From Mycobacterium sp. Root265 (GTDB lineage: Bacteria > Actinomycetota > Actinomycetes > Mycobacteriales > Mycobacteriaceae), in contig NZ_LMJA01000012.1 of NCBI RefSeq assembly GCF_001428895.1, positions 125,313-189,312 of the forward strand: DNA of 64,000 nucleotides, written 5' to 3'. The position numbers and the translations under genes are program-made. The first letter of the stretch is position 1, and each line of letters starts with the position of its first letter. This document shows, one piece after another, positions 13,385-48,065 of the stretch. A model generated the notes under the pieces. It made no database searches, was not told the origin of the DNA, and saw nothing but the letters and a program-made list of their open reading frames with translations.

Positions 13385-13706
13385 TGGGGTCCCCCTGATC
13401 CGTCGTCCATTGGGGTTGAGGTTACCCGGGTGCGTCGCGAAGTATCCCGGTGAGTTGTTGCGGGGTCACACTGGTCACCCGCGTTGCCGCGAAAAAGACG
13501 GGTCCGCCGGTGCCCACCTATGAGCGACAAATGAGCGACAACTTGATGCTGGGAGCGATCGGGTTGACACACTTTTCGTCCGGAATCGATCACGACACCA
13601 GCTCCGATCGGATGTACAGCAGTTTGAGTGGTGATTGTTCGCACGACCGTCTAACCGGCTTTCGCGAGGAAAACCTCCATGCCTGAAGGCGATGAAACGC
13701 TCTCGG
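13385..13706. other. Intergenic region with dispersed repeat
   Basis: 322 bases between two minus-strand genes. Short open frames on both strands have no protein-like character and I do not call them. It contains the 26-base repeat at 13517-13542 that recurs in inverse orientation at 48210-48235. No clear promoter could be picked for the downstream DUF7159-like operon, which starts at 13384. Confidence 0.5.
13517..13542 (+). repeat. 26-base dispersed repeat, copy 1
   Basis: Begins CCTATGAGCGACAA and is itself a near-tandem of ATGAGCGACAA. The reverse complement of 48210-48235 matches it at 24 of 26 positions. Both copies are intergenic. Confidence 0.6.
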
Positions 13707-14138
13707 TCATGCACCCGGTTCGAACTTCAGCGGTAACGCCTGCTCATCGGCGCCCTGCTCGTGAAGCGCTTCAGACCAGCGCCGATATTCGGCCTCATGG
13801 GTTGCGCCAATCCGCTTGCCTTCGTCCGTGATTCGAAGCCACAGCGTCCACGGCCAGCCCGCGCGGTCGGCAAATGTGTCGATGTAGTCTGCGGATAAGC
13901 GCTCGATAGACTCAGCCAAGTCAGACGTCCACGGCTCGAAATGTGCGCCGTGATAACGCAGGTCACCCGGTTCGGCCAAGCCATCGCGGATCAGCGCAGC
14001 CACAAGCGCCAACGTCTTGCGTTGGACCTCTGCGAGCGGATCCGACACATTCTCGAAGGCGACATGGCGGTGCGCGTCCCAAAGCTTCACCCAGTCGTAC
14101 TGGCCTTCGACAAGGAGCTTCTCGCGCGCAGAAAGCAT
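13707..14138 (-). CDS. Hypothetical protein
   Basis: 143 aa from ATG 14138 (MLSAREKLL), chosen because GAGGG lies 5 bases upstream; an in-frame start further back at 14186 adds 16 residues without a better ribosome site. The protein is acidic and Trp-rich, with WVKLWDAHRHVAFEN, HGAHFEPWTSDLAESIERL and WPWTLWLRITDEGKRIG. The last resembles the wing end of a winged-helix domain, but no DNA-binding motif is certain. Family not recognised. It stands alone between the RNase H gene and the DUF7159 operon. Confidence 0.55.
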   Translation of the reverse strand: MLSAREKLLVEGQYDWVKLWDAHRHVAFENVSDPLAEVQRKTLALVAALIRDGLAEPGDLRYHGAHFEPWTSDLAESIERLSADYIDTFADRAGWPWTLWLRITDEGKRIGATHEAEYRRWSEALHEQGADEQALPLKFEPGA

Positions 14139-14239
14139 CCCGACCCTCGCCTTTCTCGACGTCGAGAGCATAGCGAACAGGCTCAACCCCAGACACGATT
14201 GAGATCACTCGTCGCAGCAAACTTCTGCGAGTTCCGGCG

Positions 14240-15161
14240 TTATGCAGACACCACCGAACTGCGCCGGAATTCTGCGGCGAACCCGTCGGCGATCCCGGCC
14301 GCCCGGCGACGGTATTCGTCAAAGTGCAAGTCCTGGTCGCCGCGCTGATGCCGTGACGCCAGACGCGCCAAGGCATCGGCACCCTCGTTCAGCGGTTCGC
14401 CAGAGTGGCCGGGTGCCCAGCGCACGTCGATCCGTTCCCGATCGACATGGATCTGGCGTCGGGCGGCCTGCAGCGGACCATCCGCCGGGTACTCGACCGG
14501 CACGGTGGTATCGCCGCCCTTCCAGCGGTCCACCATGGCGACGGCGTCCTGGCTGTCGGACACGATCGACAGCCTTCGGCGTGTCAGTTCACACACGGCG
14601 TCACCGATCGCAAGAAGCTCGGAAACCAGGACCGGTTGCCTACCCACCGTGGTGAGCGATGAGCGGTATCCCGCCATGCCGTAATGCCCGGTGCAGGACA
14701 ACCACGCGAAGCCGGCGTGCTTACCGCGCACCGAGCCGTCGGTGGCGACCGTCATCGGTTCCCGATCCACCGGAAGCGACACCACCGGCGCGGACGGGCT
14801 GTGTCGCAGTCGTTCCACCGCGGCGTCCACCAACGGCTGTTCCGAGGTGTCGGGACGTTCGATCCACCAATGGATCTGGTGGGGCTGCCGCCACAGCGGG
14901 CTGCTCCCTTTGAGGTTCACCAGAAACCGCATCCGCAGGTGCTTCCCGTGCTCGGCGCGGATGCGGGCGATGGCCTCCAGCAGCGCGGCCTCCTTGGTGG
15001 GCACGGCGATGAACCCAGACCAGGTCTTCAACTCCCCGATCGCGGCGTAGCGGTAGCCGAAGTCCACTGCGGCGACGGCGATTGCGATCGTCTCGGGGGG
15101 GGCGCGGGCGGGCGAAGGCGAGGTCGACCGGTTTGGGTCGAGCTCGCGGCAGCGGCGCCAT
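14240..15161 (-). pseudogene. RNase H-fold protein with probable one-base frameshift in an 8-G run
   Basis: From ATG 15161, directly after the DUF2510 stop, the reading starts MAPLPRARPKPVDLAFARPR. It then leaves frame at the G run 15095-15102. With one base fewer it continues ETIAIAVAAVDFGYRYAAIG and runs to 14240 (about 306 aa). The C-terminal ~140 residues are RNase HI-like: TVATDGSVRGKHAGFAWL (first Asp), ELLAIGDAV (Glu), SIVSDSQDAVAMV (Asp) and APGHSGEPLNEGADALAR (His, final Asp), so the DEDD site is intact. The N-terminal ~130 residues are an unfamiliar alpha/beta domain. If the frameshift is real, translation could restart internally, for example at GTG 15067. An assembly error in the homopolymer is just as likely. 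Confidence 0.65.
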
Positions 15162-15731
15162 CTACCCGCAATCCGGTGGCAGGTACTGACCATGCACTCC
15201 GCGCGGATCACCCTGTTGGTAGAGCTTGTCCTCATGCTCGGCGCGCTGCGCGAGCATGTCGCGCTGGAACTGCTCGTGGCGCACCTGTTCCTCACGCTGC
15301 TGCGCGCCTTTCAGCGCCCAGAATCCGACACCGGCCAGCACGCCGATCACCGCGAAAACGGCGAGCAGCCAGGGGTGTTGGGCGATCAGACCCATCAGGA
15401 AGAACCCGCCGAACACCGCCAGCGCGATCAGCGGACGCCAGTTCGCGGTGCGCACGGTCGCCCCGGTGCCGGCGACCGCCACCGATGACGATCCTCCCCC
15501 GCCGAAGATGGCGGCCAGGGCCCAGATCGGCAGCCACAGTCCGCAGGTGAACACGGTCAGCACCAGATGCAGACCGTGGCTGGTACCGCCGTTCGATACC
15601 GCGACCGCCACGGCCTGTGCCGGCGGCGCCGGGACAGCAGGCGGGGTGGGCGTGAAGTGCTGGGTCCAGCGGTGGCCGTCGTGATAGCGCTGACCGGCCG
15701 GATCCGGGTACCAACCGGGGTGTGTGCTCAT
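15162..15731 (-). CDS. DUF2510 membrane protein
   Basis: 189 aa. The N-terminus HPGWYPDPAGQRYHDGHRWT is the DUF2510 motif common on actinobacterial membrane proteins. A Pro/Ala linker follows, then three hydrophobic segments (about residues 55-75, 97-115 and 118-138). The tail is Gln/Glu/Arg-rich, probably cytosolic and helical (QREEQVRHEQFQRD). The stop codon abuts the RNase H start, so the two genes are likely co-transcribed. Role unknown. Confidence 0.75.
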   Translation of the reverse strand: MSTHPGWYPDPAGQRYHDGHRWTQHFTPTPPAVPAPPAQAVAVAVSNGGTSHGLHLVLTVFTCGLWLPIWALAAIFGGGGSSSVAVAGTGATVRTANWRPLIALAVFGGFFLMGLIAQHPWLLAVFAVIGVLAGVGFWALKGAQQREEQVRHEQFQRDMLAQRAEHEDKLYQQGDPRGVHGQYLPPDCG

Positions 15732-15820
15732 GGTGTCCTCCGTCGATTCGCTTCGTGCTCAAGCGAGCCGGACAGAATGACAGAGCCCACCGACAAGTTC
15801 GGCTGGGAGCCGCAGGACCG

Positions 15821-16447
15821 TCAGGAGCGACGTCTGGGTCCGTCGAGGTAGTAGCCGATCAGGTACGCGATCGGCGGAAGCAGGAAGACCGGGATGGAGC
15901 TGACGACGATCAGCGCAAGCTGCACCCACCGTCGGCGGGCGATCGGGAAGCCGTCATACGAGTCGATGAACCCGGTACCGGCTAGCAATACGACCGGCAA
16001 TGCCGCAACGCCGAGCGTCGCGCCAGACATCCCCAGCACGAGTGCGCTCACTCCAGCACATACGCTGGCAACCGCCATTAGCCACCACTGCGCGTCGGCG
16101 GTTACCTGGCCGCGGTACGAGTCCGGCGGCGGGATCACCGGAGGCGCGGGACTGCCATCGGGGAGCGGATCAGGTTGAGTTCGAGCGATCCAGAACGAGT
16201 AAATTCGCCCGCCGATTTTGAGATATGAAGTACGGAAGTAGGCAAAACAAGCGGCTGCCGCGAGACAGACGGCCAGCACCACCCCGACCATACGCCAGCC
16301 AGGTTCGATGAATGCGCATGCCATCAACGCTGCTCCGAAAAGCCAACTCGCCCAATATACTCGGCGCTGCCAACGGACATTTGGAATGAAGCCGAGCGTG
16401 CAGAGACCTGCCAGCGCAATCGCGCCTCCGGCACCCAACCAATACAC
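15821..16447 (-). CDS. Multi-pass membrane protein of T7SS cassette 1 (possible immunity protein)
   Basis: 208 aa with about four to five membrane segments. I start it at GTG 16447 (VYWLGAGG) because GGAGGA sits 9 bases upstream. It has the motif TSYLKIGGRIYSFW after the first helices and ends AYLIGYYLDGPRRRS. The product of 45050-45685 shares both landmarks (TSYLRIRGRTFAF and AYFIGYKLG) and the same spacing, so the two are paralogues. Each lies directly downstream of an EspA-like gene with a glycine-zipper C-terminus. That position fits a membrane immunity protein or an export partner; this is inference. Confidence 0.65.
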   Translation of the reverse strand: MYWLGAGGAIALAGLCTLGFIPNVRWQRRVYWASWLFGAALMACAFIEPGWRMVGVVLAVCLAAAACFAYFRTSYLKIGGRIYSFWIARTQPDPLPDGSPAPPVIPPPDSYRGQVTADAQWWLMAVASVCAGVSALVLGMSGATLGVAALPVVLLAGTGFIDSYDGFPIARRRWVQLALIVVSSIPVFLLPPIAYLIGYYLDGPRRRS

Positions 16448-16466
16448 GGGCGGCACTCCTCCGAGA

Positions 16467-17966
16467 TCAGCGATCAAAAGTCGAACCGATCTGTGCACCA
16501 CCGGCTTTAAAGACTTCCCCGAAGATCAGTCCTCCCGTTATTGCTCCAACAAACGCGCCGCCTGGACCCAACGCCAAGCCACCGAGGAATCCGACCCCAG
16601 CGCCGCCACCTGCCCCACCGGCCAGACTGCCGGCTAGGCCACCAAAAGTCTTACCCGGGGCAGCGCCGTTGAGAACGTCGTCGAGTGCAAAAATGGATTC
16701 GCCCGCTATTCCTGCGGCGCCGAGTACTCGTCCGAGGCCCGAAATGGCCTTCAGATCCGCTGTCGAATAACGCTCCCATGGCAGCGAGTGCTTGCCGTCC
16801 GATAGGGCACCGTCCAGTTGCTTGATCTCACTCAAAGGTCCCGCGGTCGCGGCGATATCCCTCAGGGTTGCACCCTGGGCCATAGCTTGAGCAACGTCCG
16901 TAGCGGCACCGCGTGACAATCCTTGATTTTCAAGCCCTTTGACCATCGCATCCATTGCAACAACCCGCGCCTGCGCTTCCTGCTGATCCATCCAGGCGGT
17001 GGCCTCATCTGGAGTCATCGGCGGCATTGTGGGCGTGCCTTGCTCGAGTTGTCGCTGCCATTCCTGTCGCACCAGTGCACGCCGCTGCGGATCGGCGCCG
17101 AGAACAGGGTCGGGAGGTAGGCTCCCCGCGGGCACTCGCGATGTCTGGAAATCGTCCAGTCGCTCACCCGCGAGATTCACCGCCGACGGATCGGACGCCG
17201 GGTTCTGAATGGTGTCGTAGTCACGAAGACGGGCGGCGGCAGCCGCTCGCGCGGGCGTCATCGGACCACCGCCGTTAACCAGAGCAAGATCCGCAGCCCG
17301 TTGTTGGAAGTTGTAGTCGGCCGCTTCCCCTTGCGCAGCGTCGGTACCGCTGACGCCATCGCCGTCGGCCGCATCTACAGCGTCGGGCAAATATCCCGCA
17401 GCACGCATGCTGTCCATTGCGCTCGCCAATTCGGCGGCATACGTGGCACGCGAGTTCCCAATGCTCGAGAGCGCATCACGGACTTCCTGGACAGCCATGT
17501 TCCTCAACGGCGCGATGTTGTTCTCGTCCACGACGACGCCATCCTGCTCGACGGCGGCGGCAATCGCATCGTCGATCCGCTGGAGGCTCGCTTCGAGTTC
17601 TTGGATTGTTGAGTGTGACGACTGCTGGGTCTCGGCCAGCGCGGCCGATATGTTGCCAAGGTCGACCGCTACCCGCGCAAGCTCTTCTTTGTCCAGGTTC
17701 AGCGACGCCGTAGCTCGAGTCACTTCTTCTGAATCGTTGATCGGGTGGCCACCACCGTCCTGGCGGTCCCACGCTGCCTCAAATCGCCGCTTCGCTTCGT
17801 TGAACTCTTGGCTCGTGTCGCCCATGCAGACACCGGCGTCGTGGAAGGCGGTCGCGAGCTCGTTGATCTGGCCGGGCGACCCACTCTGGACGGTATCGTC
17901 AAGCTTCCACGGATCACCACCGGCACGCTCAATCAGGTGTCGAACGTTGAGGTAAGAAAGTTCCAC
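16467..17966 (-). CDS. EspA-like T7SS substrate with glycine-zipper C-terminus, cassette 1
   Basis: 499 aa, GTG start 3 bases after the upstream EspC-like stop. The N-terminal ~200 residues are helical and WXG-like (FEAAWDRQDGGGHPINDSEE, then long coiled-coil-like helices). A middle region with repeated acidic helices follows. The C-terminal ~60 residues are almost all Gly/Ala/hydrophobic with GxxxG spacing (GGLAGSLAGGAGGGAG, then GFLGGLALGPGGAFVG). Such glycine zippers form membrane helices and pores in known LXG toxins of Firmicutes. The protein aligns end to end with the product of 45688-47211 (shared AWDRQDGG.HPINDS, MTPDEATAW-like and GAA...A.AMAQGA segments). Export by an ESX system is predicted from the EspC-like partner; no ESX core genes are in the window. 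Confidence 0.65.
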   Translation of the reverse strand: MELSYLNVRHLIERAGGDPWKLDDTVQSGSPGQINELATAFHDAGVCMGDTSQEFNEAKRRFEAAWDRQDGGGHPINDSEEVTRATASLNLDKEELARVAVDLGNISAALAETQQSSHSTIQELEASLQRIDDAIAAAVEQDGVVVDENNIAPLRNMAVQEVRDALSSIGNSRATYAAELASAMDSMRAAGYLPDAVDAADGDGVSGTDAAQGEAADYNFQQRAADLALVNGGGPMTPARAAAAARLRDYDTIQNPASDPSAVNLAGERLDDFQTSRVPAGSLPPDPVLGADPQRRALVRQEWQRQLEQGTPTMPPMTPDEATAWMDQQEAQARVVAMDAMVKGLENQGLSRGAATDVAQAMAQGATLRDIAATAGPLSEIKQLDGALSDGKHSLPWERYSTADLKAISGLGRVLGAAGIAGESIFALDDVLNGAAPGKTFGGLAGSLAGGAGGGAGVGFLGGLALGPGGAFVGAITGGLIFGEVFKAGGAQIGSTFDR

Positions 17967-17969
17967 GAG

Positions 17970-18284
17970 CTAACTGCTCGCTTCGACGGCAGCCCCATCT
18001 ATCAAGGTGGCGCTATCGCTGTCTTCATCAGTGAACATGCTGGCAGCGGCCACTGACTTACTGGCTAGCTGCGCAAAAGTCGTTTGGTACGCACTCATGT
18101 TGTTCGCGTAGACAGTCTGGGCCTGTGACAGTCGACGATGGAACGTCGCGGCCTCGTCAAAGTCGCCGAAGATGTTCGCTGGTAGTTGAGTAGCGGTGAG
18201 ACTTGCCGCGCCCCTTCGGGCAATCGCGCCAGCGCTGTCGGAGAAGTCAGCACCCATCCGAAGCAGATCCGCATCGACAATCAT
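17970..18284 (-). CDS. EspC-like T7SS target protein, cassette 1
   Basis: 104 aa, ESX-1 secretion-associated family (EspC-like, DUF2580 type). It begins MIVDADLLRMGADFSDSAGA, almost identical to the start of the 47219-47530 product. A helical hairpin follows, with a hydrophilic tail. EspC-type proteins are secreted together with an EspA partner by ESX systems. The partner gene starts 3 bases downstream. I see no clear YxxxD/E secretion signal in the tail of this copy. Confidence 0.75.
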   Translation of the reverse strand: MIVDADLLRMGADFSDSAGAIARRGAASLTATQLPANIFGDFDEAATFHRRLSQAQTVYANNMSAYQTTFAQLASKSVAAASMFTDEDSDSATLIDGAAVEASS

Positions 18285-18345
18285 TTGGCCCCCTCAGTCC
18301 GTGGCAAATACTACTAGCGGCGGACTACGGCACCACGCACCAATT

Positions 18346-19083
18346 TCATGACTTCTTTACCCGGCTCAACATCGCCTCGACCAGACGAATCGCACTTTCT
18401 GCTGCCCGACCGCGATCCGCCGGGTCGTCGTACACCAGCTCGACCTCCACCATGCAATCCTGCGACACTCCGAGCGCGCGCCCGACCACCACCGGGGAGC
18501 CCTCGTCGCTCGTGACCGTAATGACAGCGGAAGCAATTCTGTCTACGAGACGGACATCTGAGATTGCGTCCCGCATGTCCACTCCACCGAATGCCGTCAC
18601 CACTGTCCTGCCGGCACACGCTCGCCATTGGTCAGCAAATCGTTTGAAGGTTTCCTCGGCATTGCGGGGTGAGTCGAACGCGGCTGCGCCGTACGTGGCA
18701 GCCGACTCCGAGGCGAAAGTGACGGCAACCAAGGGAGCCGAACCGTATGCGTCGGTTTCCAGAGGCGACACGACACCGATGCAGTCGCGCTCCGCGACTT
18801 CCCGGCTCTCGATAAATGTGTTCCGCAGCCTTTTACCGTTGCGGACCTTCGGCGGTCCGTCGACTGTCACCCGGTAGCCCAGCGCCTCAGAAAGCTCGGA
18901 GTCGGTCGGCAGCACCGCCGTCAACCACGCAAAAGGCTCCTGCACCTGAGTCTGCGTTGATTCAGCCGATGACGTTCTGGTGTTAGGCGTTGACGTTCCG
19001 TCGACTGGAGTCGAGCAGCCGACCAGAAGAACGACGCCAGCCGCAGCCGCAGTCGCGCGACGCAGTGCATCTCCCGTAATCAT
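18346..19083 (-). CDS. Sensor-domain lipoprotein (PknH extracellular-domain-like)
   Basis: 245 aa from ATG 19083. The signal peptide ends in the lipobox LVGC with the mature Cys near residue 23. A Ser/Thr-rich linker leads to a ~190-residue domain beginning AWLTAVLPTDSELSEALGY, with cysteines in ERDCIG, RACAG and QDCMV. This matches the PknH_C-like sensor domain found on many mycobacterial lipoproteins. It is anchored outside the membrane. It is the first gene of the cassette, 61 bases upstream of the EspC-like gene, as another lipoprotein is in cassette 2. Confidence 0.72.
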   Translation of the reverse strand: MITGDALRRATAAAAGVVLLVGCSTPVDGTSTPNTRTSSAESTQTQVQEPFAWLTAVLPTDSELSEALGYRVTVDGPPKVRNGKRLRNTFIESREVAERDCIGVVSPLETDAYGSAPLVAVTFASESAATYGAAAFDSPRNAEETFKRFADQWRACAGRTVVTAFGGVDMRDAISDVRLVDRIASAVITVTSDEGSPVVVGRALGVSQDCMVEVELVYDDPADRGRAAESAIRLVEAMLSRVKKS

Positions 19084-19400
19084 CAAAGAGATGACCTGTC
19101 CATCATCAACCCCACCCCGTCTTTACCCGACCCCAACCGCTGCCAAGGCTAACCGAGGTTCAGCGGCGGCAGTCTCATGGTGTCGGCAGGAAGTACCCAT
19201 CGTCGGACTATTTCGTCAGCCGTTGCGCACTGTTGCAACTAAGGTGATTACTCGCGGCCTGACCTCTGCGTGCGCGTGCGAAGCAGAACTACATGGTCAG
19301 AGCCAGCAGCACACCATCGACGCTGTACCGGCCCACCGCCCGCGATGTACTCGCCAATGACTCTGATCGCCCGCAGCGGAACATGATGGCTCACAGGGGC
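19084..19400. other. Intergenic region, nothing recognised
   Basis: About 317 bases between the lipoprotein gene and the HEPN gene, both on the minus strand. Open frames here are short and not protein-like. No RNA gene, repeat or strong promoter was seen. Confidence 0.4.
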
Positions 19401-19790
19401 CTAACCGAGGCTGCCCGCAATCCGCCGTGCCGCTTCGACGAGCGCTTCTGCCGATCGCCGCGCCCTCTTCCGTTCGGTCGCCGTGGCCGACTCGTGCGTG
19501 TAAGCCACTTTGGACTTCACGCCGAGCAGCGTGCTGAGATGCCGCTCCAGGGTGTCGTCAGCCTGCCGCAGCAACGCCACCGCTTCGTGGTGATTCTCGC
19601 CGATTGCGTACCTGCCCAACCGCGAGCAGCAGATCGCGTCTGAAGCAGCTATCCCGGCAAGGACATACAGGTTGACCGCCGCGTCCGACATGTCCTGTTC
19701 GACGATGTCTGCAGCGTCGAGGAATTCACCCGCCTTGCGGAGTCGTCCGGCACCGAATCCGTCTGGGCAATCACGGCTTCGTCCGACCAC
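19401..19790 (-). CDS. HEPN-like toxin of HEPN/MNT module
   Basis: 129-aa all-helical protein. It contains AGEFLDAADIVEQ, NLYVLAGIAASDAICCSRLG and NHHEAVALLRQ, the typical helices of a HEPN domain. Basic residues with nearby His (GRYAIGENHHEA) could be the RNase motif (R-x4-6-H), but the match is imperfect. The GTG start lies directly after the MNT stop, in the order MNT then HEPN. HEPN proteins in such pairs are RNases or are held inactive by AMPylation from MNT. Toxicity here is inferred. Confidence 0.65.
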   Translation of the reverse strand: MVGRSRDCPDGFGAGRLRKAGEFLDAADIVEQDMSDAAVNLYVLAGIAASDAICCSRLGRYAIGENHHEAVALLRQADDTLERHLSTLLGVKSKVAYTHESATATERKRARRSAEALVEAARRIAGSLG

Positions 19791-19792
19791 GT

Positions 19793-20422
19793 TCAGTTTC
19801 CTGCCTTCTCCGCCAGCCTCAGTTGTCGAAGCAGCCAGGCTCGTTCACCGGCGACCGTCAACCCATGATCGACCACGTCGCGGAACACCGACTCCCGCGC
19901 AAGACCGGGAAGGTCCGATCTTTGAAACTCGACAACTCGCGCATCGTTTCCAGTCCACTTCGTCACCGTGGCGGACAGATCAGCCACCTGCTGAGACCAC
20001 AACATGTCATCCGCCTCATCGTCGCCGACAAGCAGAAGGTCGATGTCGCTGTCAGCACTCATCGTTCCGCGCGCCACTGAGCCGAAAACTGCCGCGTACA
20101 AGGGGGGCTGCGCCCAGGCCGACAGAAGTTCCTCTAAAGACGTCAGGAAGGTCGATCGGATTCGCGCCAACTGCAAGATTGGCCCAGCAGCCAGGTGGTC
20201 GACGTTGAAACGGTAGGCGAATGTCCGGCCCACTCGGTCAGCCGTCACGATCCCTTGATTCACCAGTCGCGCAAGCACTTTCCGAATGCCCTCTTCCGAG
20301 AAATCACCAAGAATCCGGTGGATCTGCCCCGTCGTGAACGCGGCATTGTGCGTAGCGAGCACTGTCAGGACATCTCCGTCCAGTGCGGATGTCACGGTGG
20401 CGAGGGGGCTGCCCAGGTCCAT
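19793..20422 (-). CDS. MNT nucleotidyltransferase antitoxin with N-terminal winged helix
   Basis: 209 aa from ATG 20422 (AAGGGG 5 bases upstream). Residues ~15-75 form a winged helix (VLTVLATHNAAFTTGQIHRI, then EEGIRKVLARLVNQGIV). Residues ~105-135 carry the minimal nucleotidyltransferase motif GSVARGTMSADSDIDLL, with the GS and the two catalytic Asp residues. The family AMPylates the partner HEPN toxin. The fused winged helix implies direct autoregulation, and two matching palindromes lie in its promoter. Confidence 0.78.
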   Translation of the reverse strand: MDLGSPLATVTSALDGDVLTVLATHNAAFTTGQIHRILGDFSEEGIRKVLARLVNQGIVTADRVGRTFAYRFNVDHLAAGPILQLARIRSTFLTSLEELLSAWAQPPLYAAVFGSVARGTMSADSDIDLLLVGDDEADDMLWSQQVADLSATVTKWTGNDARVVEFQRSDLPGLARESVFRDVVDHGLTVAGERAWLLRQLRLAEKAGN

Positions 20423-20437
20423 CACAACCCCTTTCGC

Positions 20438-20472
20438 CCAACTATCGTTGGCTCATCCCAACTATAGTTGGG
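20438..20472. promoter_or_regulatory. Paired operator palindromes of the HEPN/MNT operon
   Basis: CCCAACTATAGTTGGG (20457-20472) is a perfect 16-base palindrome. CCAACTATCGTTGG (20438-20451) repeats it with one centre change, 19 bases away (start to start). Both lie directly upstream of the MNT start at 20422. The winged-helix domain of that protein is the natural candidate to bind them. Confidence 0.75.
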
Positions 20473-20513
20473 TTATTGCATCGCCGCCACCCCTGGACGT
20501 CGGACGGCAGAAG

Positions 20514-21167
20514 TTAGCTTCGTCGCCGAAACAGCTCCGCCGGCCGTCCGCGACCGACCGCGACCCGATCACCGGTGGCATCCAACTGCGACTCCATGGC
20601 GCGCCGGAAGGTGTCGCGCTGCAGTTCCCGTCCCTCGACCGCCTCGTGTACCAGGCGCAGATCCCGCAGCGTGAACACTTCCCCGAGCAGGTGATCGGGA
20701 TCCGGCGCCGACGCGTAACTCTCACGCGCGTCCTCGACGGCCAGGTCGATGATTTCGGCGTGGTCGTAGACCAGTCGGCCGGGCGCATCCACCGGCACCA
20801 GCCGGGTCGCGTCGGTAAGGCGCGTCGACAACCTGCCGGCAGGAACCACCGCGACGTGCGCGACCGACAACACCCAGCCTCGGTCGTCGCGGCCGAGCGC
20901 GTCGAAAACGTGGAGTTGGCGGGGCGCCAGCCCGTGAATGCCCGTCTTGTCGGCCAGCGAGCGCTTCACCGCGTCGGCGAGCGTCTCCCCCTCGTGTAGA
21001 AACGTGCCCGGTAGCGCCCAGCCTCTGCCCTTCGCGCGACGGACCTGCAGCACGGCCAGGCCCAGGTCGGGATCGGGTGTGAGGACCGCGGTGTCTACGG
21101 CAACGGAAGGTCGCGGATAGTCCGCAAGGGCCCGCCCGCTGCTGTTCAGAGCATTTTCGTTGGCCAT
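20514..21167 (-). CDS. Nudix-domain transcription regulator (NrtR-like) with degenerate Nudix box
   Basis: 217 aa. Residues ~20-150 are a Nudix fold (VAVDTAVLTPDPDLGLAVLQ). The Nudix box is degraded to GTFLHEGETLADAVKRSLAD, losing the REUxEE core. The last ~65 residues (LLGEVFTLRDLRLVHEAVEG, then RDTFRRAMESQ) form the winged helix of NrtR regulators. In NrtR a non-catalytic Nudix domain senses ADP-ribose and controls NAD genes. It diverges from the ADP-ribosylglycohydrolase operon with a palindrome between, so it most likely represses that operon and itself. Confidence 0.75.
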   Translation of the reverse strand: MANENALNSSGRALADYPRPSVAVDTAVLTPDPDLGLAVLQVRRAKGRGWALPGTFLHEGETLADAVKRSLADKTGIHGLAPRQLHVFDALGRDDRGWVLSVAHVAVVPAGRLSTRLTDATRLVPVDAPGRLVYDHAEIIDLAVEDARESYASAPDPDHLLGEVFTLRDLRLVHEAVEGRELQRDTFRRAMESQLDATGDRVAVGRGRPAELFRRRS

Positions 21168-21232: not shown

Positions 21233-22636
21233 ATGACATCACGCAATGATCGAGCCGAAGGTGTCCTGTTGGGCACCGCCGCCGGCGATGCCTTGGGTGC
21301 GCCGTATGAGTTCCAGCCGCCGCGCGGACCCCAACTGCCCGTGGAGATGGCAGGCGGCGGGCCGTGGGAGCCGGGCGAATGGACCGATGACACCGCGATG
21401 GCCATCGCGATCGCGGAGGTCGCGGCCACCGGTGTCGATCTGCGCGACGAGGCGGCGCAGGACGCCATCGTCGCGCGCTGGTACGACTGGTCGCGGACCG
21501 CCAAAGATGTTGGGATCCAGACCCGGTCCGTACTCAACCGGTGCGGAGGCGCCTCGGCTGCGAGGGCACGAGAAGCCGCCCACACGGTACATGCCCAGAC
21601 GGGGCGTTCCGGTGGCAATGGCTCGTTGATGCGCACCGCCCCGGTCGCGCTGGCCTACCTCGACGACGAGGACGCCATGGTCGAGGCGGCGCGGGCGATC
21701 AGCGGGCTGACGCATTTCGATCCGGAGGCCGCCGACGCGACGGTGTTGTGGTGCTGCGCCATCCGGCATGCGGTGCTCACGGCCGAGCTGGAAGTCCGGA
21801 TCGGGTTGCCGCACATCGTTGCCGAACGTCGTGAGGCCTGGCGCGACCGGATCGAGCAGGCCGAGCGGTCAGTGCCGTCAGACTTCCCGAAGAACGGCTG
21901 GGTGGTGCAGGCGCTACAGGCGGCGTGGTCGGCGATTGTCACCACTCGAAGGGACGGCGGACCCGAACATCTCGCGCGGACGCTCGATGCGGCTGTGCGT
22001 TGTGGTTTCGACACCGACACCGTCGCGGCGATTGCCGGCGGCCTGATCGGCGCGGCGTACGGCGCGTCGGCGGTCCCTTTGCAGTGGCGGCATCTGCTGC
22101 ACGGCTGGCCAGGCATGACCGCGCGAGGCCTCGTCCGACTGGCCGCGACCATCCAAACGGCCGGCAGGACGCCGGCGCAGCCGGACTACACCGGGTATCG
22201 CACCGGCGCGTTGGCGGTGCATCCGCATGACCCGGGTGTGCTGATCGGCGCCGTCGGCGCGTTGCGGGAGCTGCCGGCCGGGGTGGATGCGGTGGTATCG
22301 CTGTGCCGGATCGCCGACCGGGACGTGCCGGTGGGCATGCCGCATGTGGAGGTGCGATTGATCGACAGCACCGAGCCGGATGACAACCCGCACCTGGACT
22401 TCGTCCTACTCGACACGGTGCGCACCATCGAAGCCCTTCGCGCCCAGGGCCGCACCGTGCTGGTGCACTGCGTGGAGGCACTCAGCCGCACACCGACGGT
22501 CGCCGCGCTGTACGGCATGCGACGTGGCGCTGACGGTGCGCTGACAGATGTGTTGGCGGTATTGCCGAACGCGAATCCGAACCCGGTGTTCCGGGAGGCA
22601 GTGTGGCGGTTGAGCCCGGCGGTGCTACCCCGATGA
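21233..22636 (+). CDS. ADP-ribosylglycohydrolase fused to dual-specificity phosphatase domain
   Basis: 467 aa. The N-terminal ~310 residues are an ARH/DraG hydrolase: GVLLGTAAGDALGAPYE, the metal-binding WTDDTAMA, GRSGGNGSLMRTAP, and the C-terminal GFDTDTVAAIAGGLIGA with its Asp-Thr-Asp metal ligands. Residues ~340-450 are a cysteine phosphatase with the P-loop HCVEALSRTPT (HCx5R, Cys near 412). ARH removes ADP-ribose from proteins or nucleic acids; the phosphatase substrate could be ADP-ribose phosphate or a phosphoprotein. AAGGGGG lies 5 bases before ATG 21233. It overlaps the next start in ATGA. Confidence 0.83.
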   Translation: MTSRNDRAEGVLLGTAAGDALGAPYEFQPPRGPQLPVEMAGGGPWEPGEWTDDTAMAIAIAEVAATGVDLRDEAAQDAIVARWYDWSRTAKDVGIQTRSVLNRCGGASAARAREAAHTVHAQTGRSGGNGSLMRTAPVALAYLDDEDAMVEAARAISGLTHFDPEAADATVLWCCAIRHAVLTAELEVRIGLPHIVAERREAWRDRIEQAERSVPSDFPKNGWVVQALQAAWSAIVTTRRDGGPEHLARTLDAAVRCGFDTDTVAAIAGGLIGAAYGASAVPLQWRHLLHGWPGMTARGLVRLAATIQTAGRTPAQPDYTGYRTGALAVHPHDPGVLIGAVGALRELPAGVDAVVSLCRIADRDVPVGMPHVEVRLIDSTEPDDNPHLDFVLLDTVRTIEALRAQGRTVLVHCVEALSRTPTVAALYGMRRGADGALTDVLAVLPNANPNPVFREAVWRLSPAVLPR

Positions 22637-31865: not shown

Positions 31866-32342
31866 CTACTTTGTTTTCCGTGCGGCGCGCACCGTCGTGG
31901 CTATGGCATCTGCCGTCTCGACAGGCGACGCGTGTTCCCAGACGCGCACGACCTTCCACCCCGCTTCGGCAAGCCGCGTATCGGTATCGGCGTCCCGATT
32001 GCGGTTACGCGCAATCTTTGATGACCAGTAATCGGGATTCGCTTTGGTTTCCGGGCGACCGTGATCAGGACAGCCGTGCCAAAAACAACCGTCGATGAAC
32101 ACTGCGACCTTCGCCGGCCCGAACACGATGTCGGCCCGGCGCCGCAGCCCGGTCAGCGGCGCTCGGTCGACGCGGTAGCGGAGACCCATCGCATGCAAGA
32201 TTCGGCGCACTGCCATCTCGGGAGCCGTATCACGCGTACGTTGCAGCTGCATCCGACTACGGACTCCTGGTGTCGACGCGTACGACGATCCTGCGGACTC
32301 CGAACGCCTAGTGCGCTGGCTTCGGGTCGGTCTCCCAGTCAC
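31866..32342 (-). CDS. vsr: Very short patch repair endonuclease (Vsr)
   Basis: About 158 aa from GTG 32342. It shows RRADIVFGPAKVAVFIDGCF, then WHGCPDHG, KIARNRNRDADT and AGWKVVRVWEH, the Vsr signature with catalytic Asp, His and zinc-site Cys. The start is uncertain: ATG 32387 is also in frame and neither has a good ribosome site. Vsr nicks T:G mismatches arising from deaminated 5-methylcytosine. It follows the C5-methyltransferase gene by ~90 bases, as is usual. Confidence 0.85.
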   Translation of the reverse strand: MTGRPTRSQRTRRSESAGSSYASTPGVRSRMQLQRTRDTAPEMAVRRILHAMGLRYRVDRAPLTGLRRRADIVFGPAKVAVFIDGCFWHGCPDHGRPETKANPDYWSSKIARNRNRDADTDTRLAEAGWKVVRVWEHASPVETADAIATTVRAARKTK

Positions 32343-32431
32343 GGATCCATCATGCAACCCGTGAAAGATCTGGTCGAATTCCAGCATTCGCACCGGGCAC
32401 GGCACTTGTCCGTCGATGCGGTTCCTTGTGC

Positions 32432-33745
32432 TCAGCTGATTTTCGAACGCAGCTTTTCCGTAGCGAATGCGGCGTGACGAGCGTGACCCTCCTGGCCGCG
32501 GAACGCACGCCACTCGCCCAGACGGTAGGTGACATTTTCACCACGTTGACGGATGTCGATCTCGAAGTCGCGGCGGAGGAAATTGAGACGACGCTCGATC
32601 TCAGCATCCTCTAGTCCGCCGCCAAGTGCCCTGCGCAGCCCAGCAAGCGAGAGGAAGCCGCCGTGGTCCCGCAGTACACGATAGACCTCGTCGCGATATT
32701 GAGTGCCCACTCCGTAGTCGTCGGCCGCACGGGATTCCTTGCGGAGGGCGGAGGCGATCGCTAGCCCAACAGCACGGGCGACCGGCGGAGGGAATGCATT
32801 GCCGATTTGTCGGTAGATCGCCGTCTTGCGTTTCCTGCTGTCGCCGAAATCCCACTCGTAACCGGGGCCTGACCAGCCCTGAATGCGCGCGACCATCGGA
32901 TTGGTCAGCTTCGGGATGAAGCCGTAGGGTACCTCCGGGCCAGGGGCAGCGTCAGCGATCCCGAGTCCATCGACGCCCATCGAACGCCACTGCCGCTTGG
33001 CTCGTGTAGGGCCAAGGTCTGGACCGCCGTGTTTTTTCGAGCCGCCGACAATGGTGGGCGCGACGCGGTCCGCGGACTTTGCCCAGTCATTGGCCCCGGC
33101 CCATCCGTTCGCGGACATGAGGTCGTACAGTGCCGTGCCCACTGTCTGGATCGCAGGGGTTGGTTCGGGCCATGTGAAGTAGGGCGCAAACTCCTCTCGT
33201 AACGCTACAAGGATGAAGCGGGGCCGTAGCTGCGGTACACCGAAGTCCTTAGCCTCGAGCAGACGCCAGTCCGCGCGGTACCCAAACTCAGCGAACCTGT
33301 CAAGCACGGCCTGTCTGTATCCAGCGAACCGCGGCATCGACAGCCCCCGGACGTTCTCCAGCAGCACCGCGTCTGGCTGCATGCGGCCGGCCGCTTCCAC
33401 CGCCCATGCAAACAGGTCGCGCTCGTCCGACGACCCGAGCTGCTTGCCGGCTAGAGAGAATGGGGGGCACGGGACACCCCCCGCAAGCAGAGAGGCGCCT
33501 TGGTGCTCCTCCGGCCGCCAAACCGACTCGTCGGCAACATCACCGATCGCGATCACCGGTTCCGGGTGTCCTGCGTCGACTGCGATACGAACCAGGTTGC
33601 GCTGCAGAGTGGCCGCCGCGTCCCTGTCGAGTTCGACGGCAAGACTGTGCCGGAAACCTGCCAGGTGCAATCCGAGACTTTGCCCGCCCGCCCCGGCGCA
33701 AATCTCTACAGCTGTCAGCTCACGGTGGCGCGTCTTCCCGTCCAT
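32432..33745 (-). CDS. DNA (cytosine-5-)methyltransferase with C-terminal extra domain
   Basis: 437 aa. Motif I is AVEICAGAGGQSLGLHLAGF, motif IV is GGVPCPPFSLAGKQLGSSDE with catalytic Cys93, motif VI is LLENVRGL, motif VIII is GVPQLRPRFILVAL, and motif X is IYRQIGNAFPPPVARAVG. The last ~85 residues (DEVYRVLRDHGGFLSLAGLR, then NFLRRDFEIDIRQRGENVTY) form a winged-helix-like extension. It probably protects the host from the NaeI-type enzyme (GCCGGC in that family); GCCGGC sites do occur in this window. ATG 33745 lacks a strong ribosome site. Confidence 0.88.
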   Translation of the reverse strand: MDGKTRHRELTAVEICAGAGGQSLGLHLAGFRHSLAVELDRDAAATLQRNLVRIAVDAGHPEPVIAIGDVADESVWRPEEHQGASLLAGGVPCPPFSLAGKQLGSSDERDLFAWAVEAAGRMQPDAVLLENVRGLSMPRFAGYRQAVLDRFAEFGYRADWRLLEAKDFGVPQLRPRFILVALREEFAPYFTWPEPTPAIQTVGTALYDLMSANGWAGANDWAKSADRVAPTIVGGSKKHGGPDLGPTRAKRQWRSMGVDGLGIADAAPGPEVPYGFIPKLTNPMVARIQGWSGPGYEWDFGDSRKRKTAIYRQIGNAFPPPVARAVGLAIASALRKESRAADDYGVGTQYRDEVYRVLRDHGGFLSLAGLRRALGGGLEDAEIERRLNFLRRDFEIDIRQRGENVTYRLGEWRAFRGQEGHARHAAFATEKLRSKIS

Positions 33746-45049: not shown

Positions 45050-45685
45050 TCATGCGCGACGCCGGTACTCCGGGGATAGCTTCGACCGAAGAGGCCAATG
45101 TGTACCTAGCTTGTACCCGATGAAGTACGCGAGGATAAACACACCCACCGTCACCACGCCTACAACCACAAGCTGCACAATCTGGCCCCGCGCCACTCCA
45201 TATCCCCAAGATGCGTCCTGATGACCGATCATCAGCGGCAGTAGAACAACTACCAGCGCAGATCCTGCCGCGTACCACCTACCTTCAGACGACGCGAGAT
45301 ACATCGCAACTATCAGCGCACACCCTCCCGTAACAACCGTGAACAACCACCACATCTTCGGCGCAGTGGCGAAGCCGGCGTATGCGTCTACCGCGTGATC
45401 AGACGAATCTTGTTCGGAGTCACTGAGATTGAAGGCGAACGTTCGCCCACGGATTCGCAGGTACGACGTCGTCATATACGCCCGCAGCACCATCACCCCT
45501 GCAATTGACGACGCGAACACAAGTCCGCCGCGCCAGTCTGGTGGGTAAATCGTGAAGAACGCCGCAAATACAGCCACGGCGGCACCTGCCCAATACAACC
45601 GCCGCTCCGCCGACGCGCTCTTGGTCGGCAACATGGGGAGGCCAAGACCTACAAGCATCATCGCCGCAAAGAACGGATTGATCAT
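45050..45685 (-). CDS. Multi-pass membrane protein of T7SS cassette 2 (possible immunity protein)
   Basis: 211 aa from ATG 45685, 2 bases after the EspA-like stop. About four to six membrane segments (MMLVGLGLPMLPT, WAGAAVAVFAAFFTIY, WWLFTVVTGGCALIVAMYLA, LVVVGVVTVGVFILAYFIG). TSYLRIRGRTFAF and AYFIGYKLG match the paralogue at 15821-16447. The cytosolic loop between is acidic (NLSDSEQDSSDHAVD). Its place and paralogy suggest an immunity or chaperone-like partner of the glycine-zipper protein upstream. Confidence 0.65.
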   Translation of the reverse strand: MINPFFAAMMLVGLGLPMLPTKSASAERRLYWAGAAVAVFAAFFTIYPPDWRGGLVFASSIAGVMVLRAYMTTSYLRIRGRTFAFNLSDSEQDSSDHAVDAYAGFATAPKMWWLFTVVTGGCALIVAMYLASSEGRWYAAGSALVVVLLPLMIGHQDASWGYGVARGQIVQLVVVGVVTVGVFILAYFIGYKLGTHWPLRSKLSPEYRRRA

Positions 45686-45687
45686 CG

Positions 45688-47211
45688 TCAGCTCGTCGCC
45701 ATCTTGTAGCCCTGCTGCCCGGCCCATTCTCCTGCGAAAGAGCCCGCAACTCCGCCTACGAGTGCACCCACGAAGACACCCACCGGGCCACCCGGCGTAC
45801 CGGCCCAAGCTCCGACTTCAGCCCCTAGCCACGTTCCCGCCATCCCGCCGCCGATTTTTGAACCCACCTCACCGATTGGAACGCCGTTGCTCACTTCATA
45901 TAACGCGACGGTTGCTTCAAGCACAGTTCCGACGTGCCCTAGCTTGCTGGACACATTCTTTAGTGACTCAAGGTCCTCAGGCGTGTACGCGACGCCAGGC
46001 TTCCAGTGGTCACCGGTCGGCACCACCTCGCCATATTGCTTGATTGCTTCGGACTCACCTGCGGCAGCCTTGCTTCCGCCTTGCGCGAGCGCCACGAGTT
46101 CTTGGGGAACAGCGCCCTGGGACATTGCTTCGGCGGTTGCAGCAGCGCCCTCCGGAGTCATGCCGGCACGCTGCAACTCATCCTGAAAACGCTCAAGCAC
46201 TAGGGCACGGCCGGCAGATTCGCTTCGATTGAGCCATTCGGTCGCCTCGTCAGGGGCCATCGTCGCAGTGCCTGCATAGCCCTGTTCCAGTTTCTGTTGC
46301 CACTCCAACCGCGTCTGCGCGCGAGACCGAGCGTCGCCGCCCATGACCGGATCCACTGGCAATGGTCCGCTGGCGTTGGCTGAATGGAAGTCATCGAGTC
46401 GCTGGTCGGCATATCGGATCTCGTCTACGCTCGCCGTCGCGTTGTTGATCGTTGCGAAGTCTCGAAGCCGGTCCGCAGCCGCCTGTTTCTCAGGAGTCCA
46501 AGGTCCAGGTCCGTTGACCAGTGCTTGATCGACCGACCGTTGGCCGGCGTCGTACTTGTCGGCTGTGGCTTGCGTCGCCGTCTCGAAGCCAGGGTTTCGC
46601 CCATCAGAGCCATCCGTCGCACCGGGCGCATACCCTTCGGCCGCCATCTCAGTACGCGATTGGTCAAGTTGTTCGCCATAGCCATCGCGAACCGCTTGAA
46701 GCTCCTTAACTGCTACGGCGGTGCGATCCACCGCCGCTTCTCTCAGCTCCGAAACATCCGCAGTGTCGCCGTTAGCGGCCGCGACTCTGAGTGCGTGATC
46801 GATCTGCCCATCAATGGCCTTCAAAGCGGCTTCAAGGTTGCTGATGGAGACAGCACCGCTCCGTTGGGCTTCGGCCAGGGAAGCGGCAATGTTCTGGAGA
46901 TCGACAGCCACTTTCGCCAGCTTGTCTCGGTTGTAATTCATCGACTCAGTGGCACGCTGAACCTCAGCCGAGTCATTGATGGGATGGTCACCCCCGTCTT
47001 GCCGATCCCACGCCGACTCAAAGCGGGCCTTTGCTGCGAGAAATTCTTCTGAAGTTTCCTGACTACAGCTGCTGGCTTGCCGGAACGCAGACGCGAGCTC
47101 GCTGATCTCCCCGGGAGCCCCAGCTTGAATAGTCCGGTCCAACTCCCACGGGTCACCGCCCGCCGAGCCGATGAGGTCCCCGACCTTGAGGTGTTGTAGT
47201 TGCAGCGTCAC
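45688..47211 (-). CDS. EspA-like T7SS substrate with glycine-zipper C-terminus, cassette 2
   Basis: 507 aa, GTG start 7 bases after the EspC-like stop. It shares with the 16467-17966 product SAGGDPWELD/RAGGDPWKLD, AWDRQDGG.HPINDS, the pattern of helices to ~200, and segments like MAPDEATEWLN and GAVPQE. The last ~75 residues are a glycine zipper (SKIGGGMAGTWLGAEVGAWA, then GVFVGALVGGVAGSFAG), diverged from cassette 1 in order and sequence. Diversified C-termini on a constant N-domain are typical of polymorphic toxins. Secretion through an ESX system encoded elsewhere is assumed. Confidence 0.65.
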   Translation of the reverse strand: MTLQLQHLKVGDLIGSAGGDPWELDRTIQAGAPGEISELASAFRQASSCSQETSEEFLAAKARFESAWDRQDGGDHPINDSAEVQRATESMNYNRDKLAKVAVDLQNIAASLAEAQRSGAVSISNLEAALKAIDGQIDHALRVAAANGDTADVSELREAAVDRTAVAVKELQAVRDGYGEQLDQSRTEMAAEGYAPGATDGSDGRNPGFETATQATADKYDAGQRSVDQALVNGPGPWTPEKQAAADRLRDFATINNATASVDEIRYADQRLDDFHSANASGPLPVDPVMGGDARSRAQTRLEWQQKLEQGYAGTATMAPDEATEWLNRSESAGRALVLERFQDELQRAGMTPEGAAATAEAMSQGAVPQELVALAQGGSKAAAGESEAIKQYGEVVPTGDHWKPGVAYTPEDLESLKNVSSKLGHVGTVLEATVALYEVSNGVPIGEVGSKIGGGMAGTWLGAEVGAWAGTPGGPVGVFVGALVGGVAGSFAGEWAGQQGYKMATS

Positions 47212-47218
47212 GCGACGG

Positions 47219-47530
47219 TCAAGGAAGCGAGTTGCCTACGGCCGTCACATCGCTGGAAGCTACTTCGTCTTGGGCGACGAAAGTAGCGGCCGCGACGGTG
47301 GCCTTCTCGGCGAGACTGCCGAGTTCGCTGTAGTGACATTCCATCAGTTCGATGTGCGACTGAACCGCAGTGCTTAGTGCGGCTTGAAAGCTATCGGCGG
47401 TGTCAAACTCTCCGAAGATTCCCGATCTGAGCTGTGTAGCGGCAAACTGCGAGGCTCCTCGCTGCACAATAGAGGCCGCGCTGTTCGAATAGTCCGCGCC
47501 CATCCGCAGCAAATCAGTATCGACGATCAT
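47219..47530 (-). CDS. EspC-like T7SS target protein, cassette 2
   Basis: 103 aa from ATG 47530, preceded by a G-rich ribosome site. MIVDTDLLRMGADYSNSAAS is nearly identical to cassette 1; the rest is diverged but of equal length (FGEFDTADSFQAAL and FGDFDEAATFHRRL). Helical hairpin, hydrophilic tail. First gene of the EspC-like/EspA-like/membrane set. Confidence 0.75.
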   Translation of the reverse strand: MIVDTDLLRMGADYSNSAASIVQRGASQFAATQLRSGIFGEFDTADSFQAALSTAVQSHIELMECHYSELGSLAEKATVAAATFVAQDEVASSDVTAVGNSLP

Positions 47531-47597
47531 GTGGCTCCCCCCGGCAGTCAATTTGGATTCTACCGGCGGCCAGACGTTGTCTAGTGCACCAGTTTGG

Positions 47598-48065
47598 CTA
47601 GGAAAGTTCGAAGCCGAACCGCTCTAGAGACGCTAGCGGCGCGGATTCGGGGCTTTCAACGGCGACGAACACCCACGTTCTTCCATGGTCGTCGGTGCGG
47701 GTGGCATAGCCATGCTCGACCCCGATAGTGCCCACGTCACTGGCTGCCGCCGCGGGATCTTCGTACACACCGACCAGAACGCCATCTCGCCCTGGCGGAG
47801 TAATGCACAGCGCCACCGGGTCTGCCCCAGGAAGCCAAGAGTTCGGCGACGCATCCCCGACAGACGGACTGCCGCAGGCCGCGGTCAACCACGCCACGCC
47901 GTCGCGTGTCTCAAAGGGAGACTCCGACTCGGTCTGTTGCGCGACTGCCGATGAAGTCGACGGCGGGACGACCGGTTCGTCGGTTGCACAACCTGCGAGC
48001 ACGAATGCGGTACTGAGAGCTAGCAGCGCTCCAGCAACATGGTGGCCCCGCCGTGTGACTGACAT
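47598..48065 (-). CDS. Lipoprotein of T7SS cassette 2
   Basis: 155 aa. Signal peptide ends in lipobox LAGC (Cys near residue 26), followed by a Ser/Gln-rich linker and a small domain with TAACGSPSV and ALCITPPGRDG cysteines, GVEHGYATRTDDHGRTWVFV and FGFELS. It is not similar to the cassette 1 lipoprotein, yet has the same position. It could be a surface receptor or exclusion protein acting with the cassette; inference only. Confidence 0.65.
   Translation of the reverse strand: MSVTRRGHHVAGALLALSTAFVLAGCATDEPVVPPSTSSAVAQQTESESPFETRDGVAWLTAACGSPSVGDASPNSWLPGADPVALCITPPGRDGVLVGVYEDPAAAASDVGTIGVEHGYATRTDDHGRTWVFVAVESPESAPLASLERFGFELS

Follow-up and report, generated by a model that had tools for sequence, protein, structure and literature searches.

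Putative colicin-like toxin and immunity cassettes linked to ESX secretion in Mycobacterium sp. Root265

The stretch of DNA considered here (hereafter the window) comprises 64,000 nucleotides of Mycobacterium sp. Root265 (contig NZ_LMJA01000012.1, positions 125,313 to 189,312) and carries two paralogous cassettes, each of which probably encodes an ESX-exported, colicin-like, membrane-depolarising polymorphic toxin, aimed at competing bacteria, together with a membrane immunity protein. The genomic case for this reading is strong, and the biochemistry is predicted. A preliminary description of cassette 1 had proposed an exported membrane-active effector with an adjoining membrane immunity protein, and the proposal gains support from the variable C-termini of the toxin family, from the linkage of a glycine-zipper domain to the membrane gene and, to a moderate degree, from a profile match to pyocin S5. 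Antibacterial warfare by type VII secretion systems (T7SS) is well shown in the Firmicutes, and the ESX systems of mycobacteria have been studied mostly for their part in host interaction.

Putative toxin and membrane protein genes of the two cassettes

Cassette 1 spans positions 15821-19086 of the minus strand (as do all coordinates of cassette genes below) and consists, in the compact order that the preliminary description had given and the open reading frames (ORFs) bear out, of genes for a lipoprotein, a small helical protein, a zipper protein of 499 amino acids and a membrane protein of 208 amino acids. The toxin gene, as called from its ORF (16467..17966, GTG start, stop at 16467-16469), encodes three regions. 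The N-terminal domain (residues 1-195; 17382..17966), putatively an ESX targeting domain, is the Pfam domain Hydro_N_hd (PF22905), matched by residues 1-188 with 205.3 bits against a curated cut-off of 27 (E 1.1e-60). The middle domain (about residues 209-345; 16932..17342) is judged from the alignment and from gene maps to be a conserved module common to several N-terminal types. The C-terminal domain (about residues 380-499; 16470..16829) is the glycine zipper, putatively colicin-like, recognised by the match of its own profile to pyocin S5 and colicin Ib and by its zipper count. The zipper had been noticed before and withstands comparison with chance: the last 64 residues hold 23 glycines and 10 zipper motifs, against 4.3 expected when the same residues are shuffled 5000 times (p 0.005), and the last 67 residues of the toxin of cassette 2 hold 12 motifs against 3.0 expected (reached in 0 of 5000 shuffles).

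The multi-pass membrane protein, the putative immunity protein (208 amino acids; 15821..16447), is identified by its ORF, its predicted structure and its linkage to the zipper. Its gene starts with the GTG at 16447, behind a GGAGG ribosome site and about 20 bases past the toxin stop, so read giving 208 amino acids as against 226 for the mechanical ORF. A high-confidence structure prediction gives the protein six or seven long helices packed in a bundle (mean predicted local distance difference test score, pLDDT, 92.5). Upstream of the toxin lies the gene for the small helical protein (104 amino acids; 17970..18284), a DUF2563 protein (PF10817, E 2e-15) and putative export partner, which carries FxxxD near its C-terminus.

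Cassette 2 has the same gene order (45050-48065, with the DUF2563, toxin and membrane part at 45050-47530). Its DUF2563 protein (47219..47530) is 40% identical to that of cassette 1, its toxin of 507 amino acids (45688..47211), also a PF22905 match, 42% and its putative membrane immunity protein (45050..45691) 37%; if translation of the membrane gene begins at the TTG at 45691, there is a four-base overlap with the toxin stop codon. The two cassettes account for the only PF22905 matches in the source genome, which has three EccC-type loci over the cut-off.

Linkage, co-variation and distribution of the zipper domain and the membrane gene

PF22905 is present in 160 of 298 genomes of the genus, with up to 9 matches in one genome. 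The family was sampled by 60 stretches around the strongest matches to the membrane gene and 60 stretches around matches to the N-domain. In the latter, 48 of 68 N-domain ORFs have no recognised zipper domain, and ten representatives of these carry Abhydrolase_8 (two), TNT (one, E 5e-20), DUF4185 (one), TPR_23 (two) or nothing assigned beyond the N-domain (four). A common N-terminal domain with exchangeable C-terminal domains, one criterion of a polymorphic toxin, is what is found. The check proposed with the preliminary description, whether C-termini vary while the membrane gene co-varies, comes out in its favour: the N-domain is common, the C-termini differ, and the membrane gene is tied more closely to the zipper than to the N-domain.

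The linkage was tabulated for 64 N-domain ORFs from the N-domain stretches, four pieces having been dropped. The membrane gene lies within 230 base pairs downstream in 18 of 19 ORFs with a zipper, as opposed to 0 of the 45 others (Fisher 5e-15), and a look at the 600 bases downstream, and at up to 6 kb of the stretch, revealed no membrane gene for any of the 45. At 46 named loci (L numbers below), all Mycobacteriaceae by title, the matched gene's zipper domain has the membrane gene after it in 45 cases and lacks it in L227, which is the same contig as L134, the sole zipper ORF of the N-domain stretches without a membrane gene. There (L134:7015-10315) the next gene after the zipper toxin, with no membrane gene between, is a second Hydro_N_hd gene, whose C-terminus is TNT.

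Some points weigh against the reading as toxin and immunity. The table is uncorrected for relatedness among N-domains; at least one of the 45 zipper-less ORFs (L163) ends in a different glycine-rich stretch unseen by the profile; in Mycolicibacterium stellerae (L134/L227) the zipper toxin stands without a membrane gene nearby, its genome (G144) lying outside the 177 with a membrane match; and 12 of the 60 stretches picked by the membrane gene hold no recognised toxin. The tests of co-variation, other carriers and orphans weigh more than the linkage table.

Distance correlations were calculated for 44 non-redundant units with full-length membrane matches. The zipper and the membrane protein correlate with r 0.80, a value reached by 0 of 2000 permutations, as compared to 0.67 for the middle domain and 0.59 for the N-domain with the membrane protein; the N-domain and the zipper, though on one chain, give r 0.56. 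The partial correlation of zipper and membrane protein given the N-domain is 0.70, that of N-domain and membrane protein given the zipper 0.29. On average, pairs of units differ by 0.71 in the membrane protein, by 0.65 in the zipper and by 0.53 in the N-domain. The DUF2563 protein (57 units) correlates with the N-domain (r 0.88, or 0.84 given the zipper) and, given the N-domain, has a correlation of -0.03 with the zipper; [YF]xxx[DE] stands at one position in 55 of its 57 relatives. Because co-variation splits in this way, the operon may be regarded as an export-like pair (DUF2563 and N-domain) joined to a toxin-immunity-like pair (zipper and membrane protein).

The adjoining membrane match is short in 25 of 92 units, and in 24 of these 25 no more than a few residues separate the end of the match from that of the frame, which makes the short frames look like free-standing N-terminal halves. 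The class of the membrane protein, long or short match, is foretold by the nearest zipper in 60, 58 and 54 of 65 cases as near relatives are dropped, and by the nearest N-domain in 55, 39 and 28. An immunity-like gene that adjoins the C-terminal domain and co-varies with it, a further criterion of polymorphic toxins, is present.

The zipper hairpin might instead be a translocation device that carries the effector into the target membrane, with toxicity residing elsewhere and the membrane protein serving as receptor or escort, and such a use of a glycine zipper is described for an effector of a type VI secretion system (PMC10240207). The well-conserved middle domain would suit this account. It is rendered unlikely by the order of the correlations just given, by the window proteins themselves, which have no sequence after the zipper, and by the existence of short zipper frames, possibly remnants, followed by the membrane gene (L077, L122, L075).

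The zipper and membrane pair, read as toxin and immunity, is also found apart from Hydro_N_hd. Among 84 distinct zipper ORFs with at least 120 amino acids upstream, 14 lack that domain; one N-terminal group takes up 8 distinct places and another 3, which leaves a remainder of 3, and the group of 8 has a weak WXG100 or PPE resemblance. The membrane gene starts 24 to 111 bases after all 14, a result of which only the closeness is informative, the membrane gene itself having been the basis for choosing the stretches that hold 13 of them. By eye, the membrane gene stands beside a PPE-like protein in L083 and beside a WXG-like pair in L105, and these neighbours are possibly further carriers. Across the order, a profile of the middle domain plus zipper matches 23 of 348 genomes, 11 of them from other genera, where the match runs solely from about profile position 126 onward. 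Of 18 such places, 3 of them in the source genus, 12 have among the nearest downstream frames one with at least two predicted membrane segments, 2 have one with a single segment and 4 have none, as scored by simple hydropathy on stop-to-stop frames, and nearly all come from families other than the window's. At L244:3639-9887, a 2083-amino-acid protein of another family has the same kind of zipper end and is followed by a frame of 145 amino acids with four predicted membrane segments. A second zipper C-terminus occurs in L245, L248 and L256, on Hydro_N_hd in the first two, with a downstream frame of 101-110 amino acids and three predicted segments that the membrane profile hardly recognises or does not.

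Membrane genes also occur in tandem arrays. Two or more hits are found in 22 of the 79 stretches with a match, a count that includes the window with its two cassettes and in which pieces of one gene may count twice. L215, L206 (Mycobacterium pinniadriaticum), L116, L075 and L122 hold arrays of immunity-like genes, several with toxin C-terminal fragments, like polyimmunity loci. In L065 and L066 the flanks of the window's site can be aligned, with DNA identities of about 92-93%, 85% and 78%; there is no toxin operon there, but there is a membrane gene, its product 42% identical to the window's over residues 1-67 and 74-82% over residues 68-208. The membrane gene of L064, next to part of the window's flank, is divided likewise (42%, then 74-88%). 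The diverged residues 1-67 and the free-standing N-terminal halves suggest that the first three helices are the part likely to recognise the toxin. The preliminary description had named a membrane gene widespread without the toxin as grounds for refutation, and stretches with no recognised toxin do occur, in the proportion given above. Three of those 12, the orphans of L064, L065 and L066, diverge from the window's gene chiefly in the 5' third, a pattern that orphan immunity genes would show if retained, and two others, L083 and L105, adjoin further proteins that by eye resemble T7SS substrates. Within the window, a variable stretch (about 13430-20524) lies between flanks that align to L063, L065 and L066, and the toxin site behaves like an exchange hotspot.

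Two other accounts bear on the same distribution. One, akin to what has been proposed for channel-forming Esx or PPE proteins, would make the protein an ESX-exported envelope component or channel that serves the cell itself in transporting nutrients or proteins; the membrane protein would then help in its assembly. Channel roles have been described for ESX-linked proteins of mycobacteria (PMC7810871, PMC10117145), but the patchy distribution, the polymorphic C-termini including TNT, the tandem and orphan membrane genes and the divergence of same-site orphans in their 5' third make this very unlikely here. The other account would direct the effector at a eukaryotic host rather than at bacteria. 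I give it equally little credence, since a dedicated, co-varying membrane protein, arrays, and toxin-less relatives that keep one fit a bacterial target most easily, although a producer may require self-protection whatever the target. ESX substrates of pathogenic mycobacteria do act on hosts, which counts for this account, as does the discussion of prophage cassettes of Mycobacterium abscessus as aiding growth in vivo (PMC8092301).

The zipper domain and pore-forming bacteriocins

To return to a colicin-like antibacterial toxin, searches with toxin-family profiles hit pyocin S5 in its pore-forming domain (E 3.2e-6 and 4.5e-7) and also colicin Ib (E 2.5e-4 and 1.2e-3). The scores for these two were reached by 0 of 200 column-shuffled profiles and by 0 of 2000 window-shuffled targets, and the aligned region, about 100-150 residues long, keeps the right order and takes in the helix that precedes the hairpin. 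Hydropathy peaks at 1.4 to 1.6 in the last 100 residues of the toxin, and the excess of zipper motifs together with these peaks points, besides the profile homology, to a membrane-active hairpin. I hold with moderate confidence that the zipper domain is homologous to the pore-forming domain of bacteriocins.

Several comparisons pull the other way. Set beside colicins Ia and Ib and pyocin S5, the window's domain is very divergent and glycine-rich, and three colicins match it weakly or not: colicin Ia with 10.7 bits (1 of 2000 shuffles), colicin E1 with 6.1 bits and colicin A with -1.4 bits, a score equalled or beaten by 129 of 200 shuffles. The reverse search, with a profile of five colicin sequences against 29,359 ORFs, recovered none of the 135 zipper ORFs, even with E values as high as 10 allowed. 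Profile-profile comparison (hhalign) gave a probability of 34% and E 4e-4, and a search of 43 members against Pfam placed no colicin family among the best 25 of 42 families. The C-terminus of the toxin has mostly pLDDT below 50 in AlphaFold, and the pore fold is thus unconfirmed.

The mechanism that I propose would begin with the pairing of DUF2563 and Hydro_N_hd to form a helical export signal, with [YF]xxxD/E on the DUF2563 partner, and the pair would be exported by one of the cell's ESX systems. By remote homology, the C-terminal 120 or so amino acids would be a pore-forming domain of the colicin Ia or pyocin S5 type, whose glycine-zipper hairpin may insert into the cytoplasmic membrane of the target and depolarise it. 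The downstream membrane protein, to judge from linkage and co-variation, would be the cognate immunity protein, blocking insertion or assembly within the same membrane and probably recognising the toxin by its first three helices. The C-terminal domain and its putative immunity gene appear in the sequences on different N-terminal carriers, with apparently spare immunity genes as arrays or orphans.

Known systems, family assignments and neighbouring genes

The kind of system is already known, from T7SS toxins of Firmicutes and prophage toxins of M. abscessus; the cassettes would be an ESX-linked, colicin-like variant with membrane immunity. Glycine-zipper or depolarising T7SS toxins with immunity have been described in Firmicutes (TspA-TsaI, PMC7456083; EsxX-ExiCD, PMC12744356; TelE-TipE, PMC10434224). 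The cassettes resemble TspA-TsaI of Staphylococcus aureus in a T7SS substrate (here putative) that is a polymorphic toxin with a membrane-depolarising C-terminus, there modelled on colicin Ia, and in an adjoining polytopic membrane immunity protein in a tandem array; they differ in that TspA-TsaI belongs to a Firmicute T7SSb and has immunity proteins of family DUF443 with five predicted helices (PMC7456083), whereas here Hydro_N_hd and DUF2563 are found. With EsxX-ExiAB/ExiCD and TelE-TipE they share the C-terminal glycine zipper, tied there to membrane damage, and with the former also membrane immunity proteins (ExiCD) kept as orphans by non-producers; EsxX and TelE have an LXG N-domain and a soluble immunity protein, ExiAB or TipE (PMC12744356, PMC10434224), and no soluble immunity protein was recognised among the cassette genes. 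Closest in host are the polymorphic toxin and immunity (PT-Imm) cassettes of M. abscessus prophages, likewise T7SS-linked polymorphic toxins of a mycobacterium with adjoining immunity genes and a small helical partner; these are prophage-borne, their N-domains being of the WXG-100 type and their C-termini, for example, TNT or Tox-REase-5, and the word glycine is absent from the main text of the paper (PMC8092301). A tblastn search with the window toxin against 50,697 phage records gave no match at E 1e-5.

Immunity arrays and recombination have been described, with recombination in esaG and tipC and little in tsaI (PMC9484751). A 2012 survey of polymorphic toxins includes a single pore-forming domain, Tox-WTIP, confined to proteobacteria. 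DUF2563 is found in a table of domains of slow growers (PMC10551460) and once in a review (PMC6567927). In titles and the beginnings of abstracts of the open-licence literature, nothing among the matches listed for DUF2563, for PF22905 and for pore-forming or antibacterial ESX toxins of mycobacteria with immunity concerns this family.

Whether the Mycobacteriales possess a large and unrecognised arsenal of ESX-exported colicin-like pore-forming toxins is, in my judgement, evenly balanced. Such an arsenal would consist of one zipper pore domain on at least three N-terminal export domains in mycobacteria, on WXG-like and 2000-amino-acid proteins in other families, and fast-evolving membrane immunity proteins with specificity set by the first three helices. 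Were it so, ESX would be a general system for antagonism between mycobacteria. A genus-wide chromosomal family of toxins and immunity proteins with membrane-pore chemistry would make mycobacterial competition directly testable. DUF2563, so far a protein of unknown function, gains a predicted role as export partner, and the half-changed and half-length immunity proteins would amount to a natural experiment on immunity specificity.

The family names first given to the genes of cassette 1 need revision. The toxin had been called EspA-like, but no EspA-named Pfam family matches it up to E 1, the best match being PF22905; PF23275, EspA-like according to Pfam, is carried only by relatives with other C-termini. 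The small protein is not EspC-like but DUF2563, the EspC model (PF10824) reaching E 0.086 and 13.7 bits against a cut-off of 23.5. The LXG toxin family was likewise considered and rejected, no LXG Pfam family matching the toxin up to E 1. A search of NCBIfam gave no match for the toxin, the DUF2563 protein or the membrane protein. The family of the membrane protein has no consistent Pfam match: the best has E 4e-4, in 2 of 43 members, and the commonest is Rv2743c, in 7 of 43 (best E 0.0025).

The lipoprotein, which the preliminary description had treated as a fixed component, is an inconstant neighbour of the cassette. In cassette 1 (246 amino acids; 18346..19086) it has a lipobox, LVGC, read by eye, and an outer part matching PknH_C (PF14032, E 7.5e-21). 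Of 93 distinct zipper domains, 11 have a homologue of this lipoprotein no farther than 3.5 kb away (15 of 126 if places sampled twice are included). Cassette 2 has a different, smaller lipoprotein (155 amino acids; 47598..48065), of which only an N-terminal stretch aligns (22 of 59 residues identical).

Beside cassette 1, on the minus strand (19401-20425), a protein of 129 amino acids without a family follows a winged-helix and nucleotidyltransferase protein that weakly matches the MntA antitoxin (NF047752, E 3.7e-7, below the cut-off); the two are possibly a toxin-antitoxin pair. On the plus strand (21233-22636) an ADP-ribosylglycohydrolase (PF03747, E 1.3e-54) is fused to a phosphatase-like domain, which matches the polymorphic-toxin phosphatase Tc-R-P below the threshold. 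Farther along the minus strand (31866-33745), adjoining genes resemble, by eye, those of a cytosine-5 methyltransferase and a Vsr-type mismatch endonuclease.

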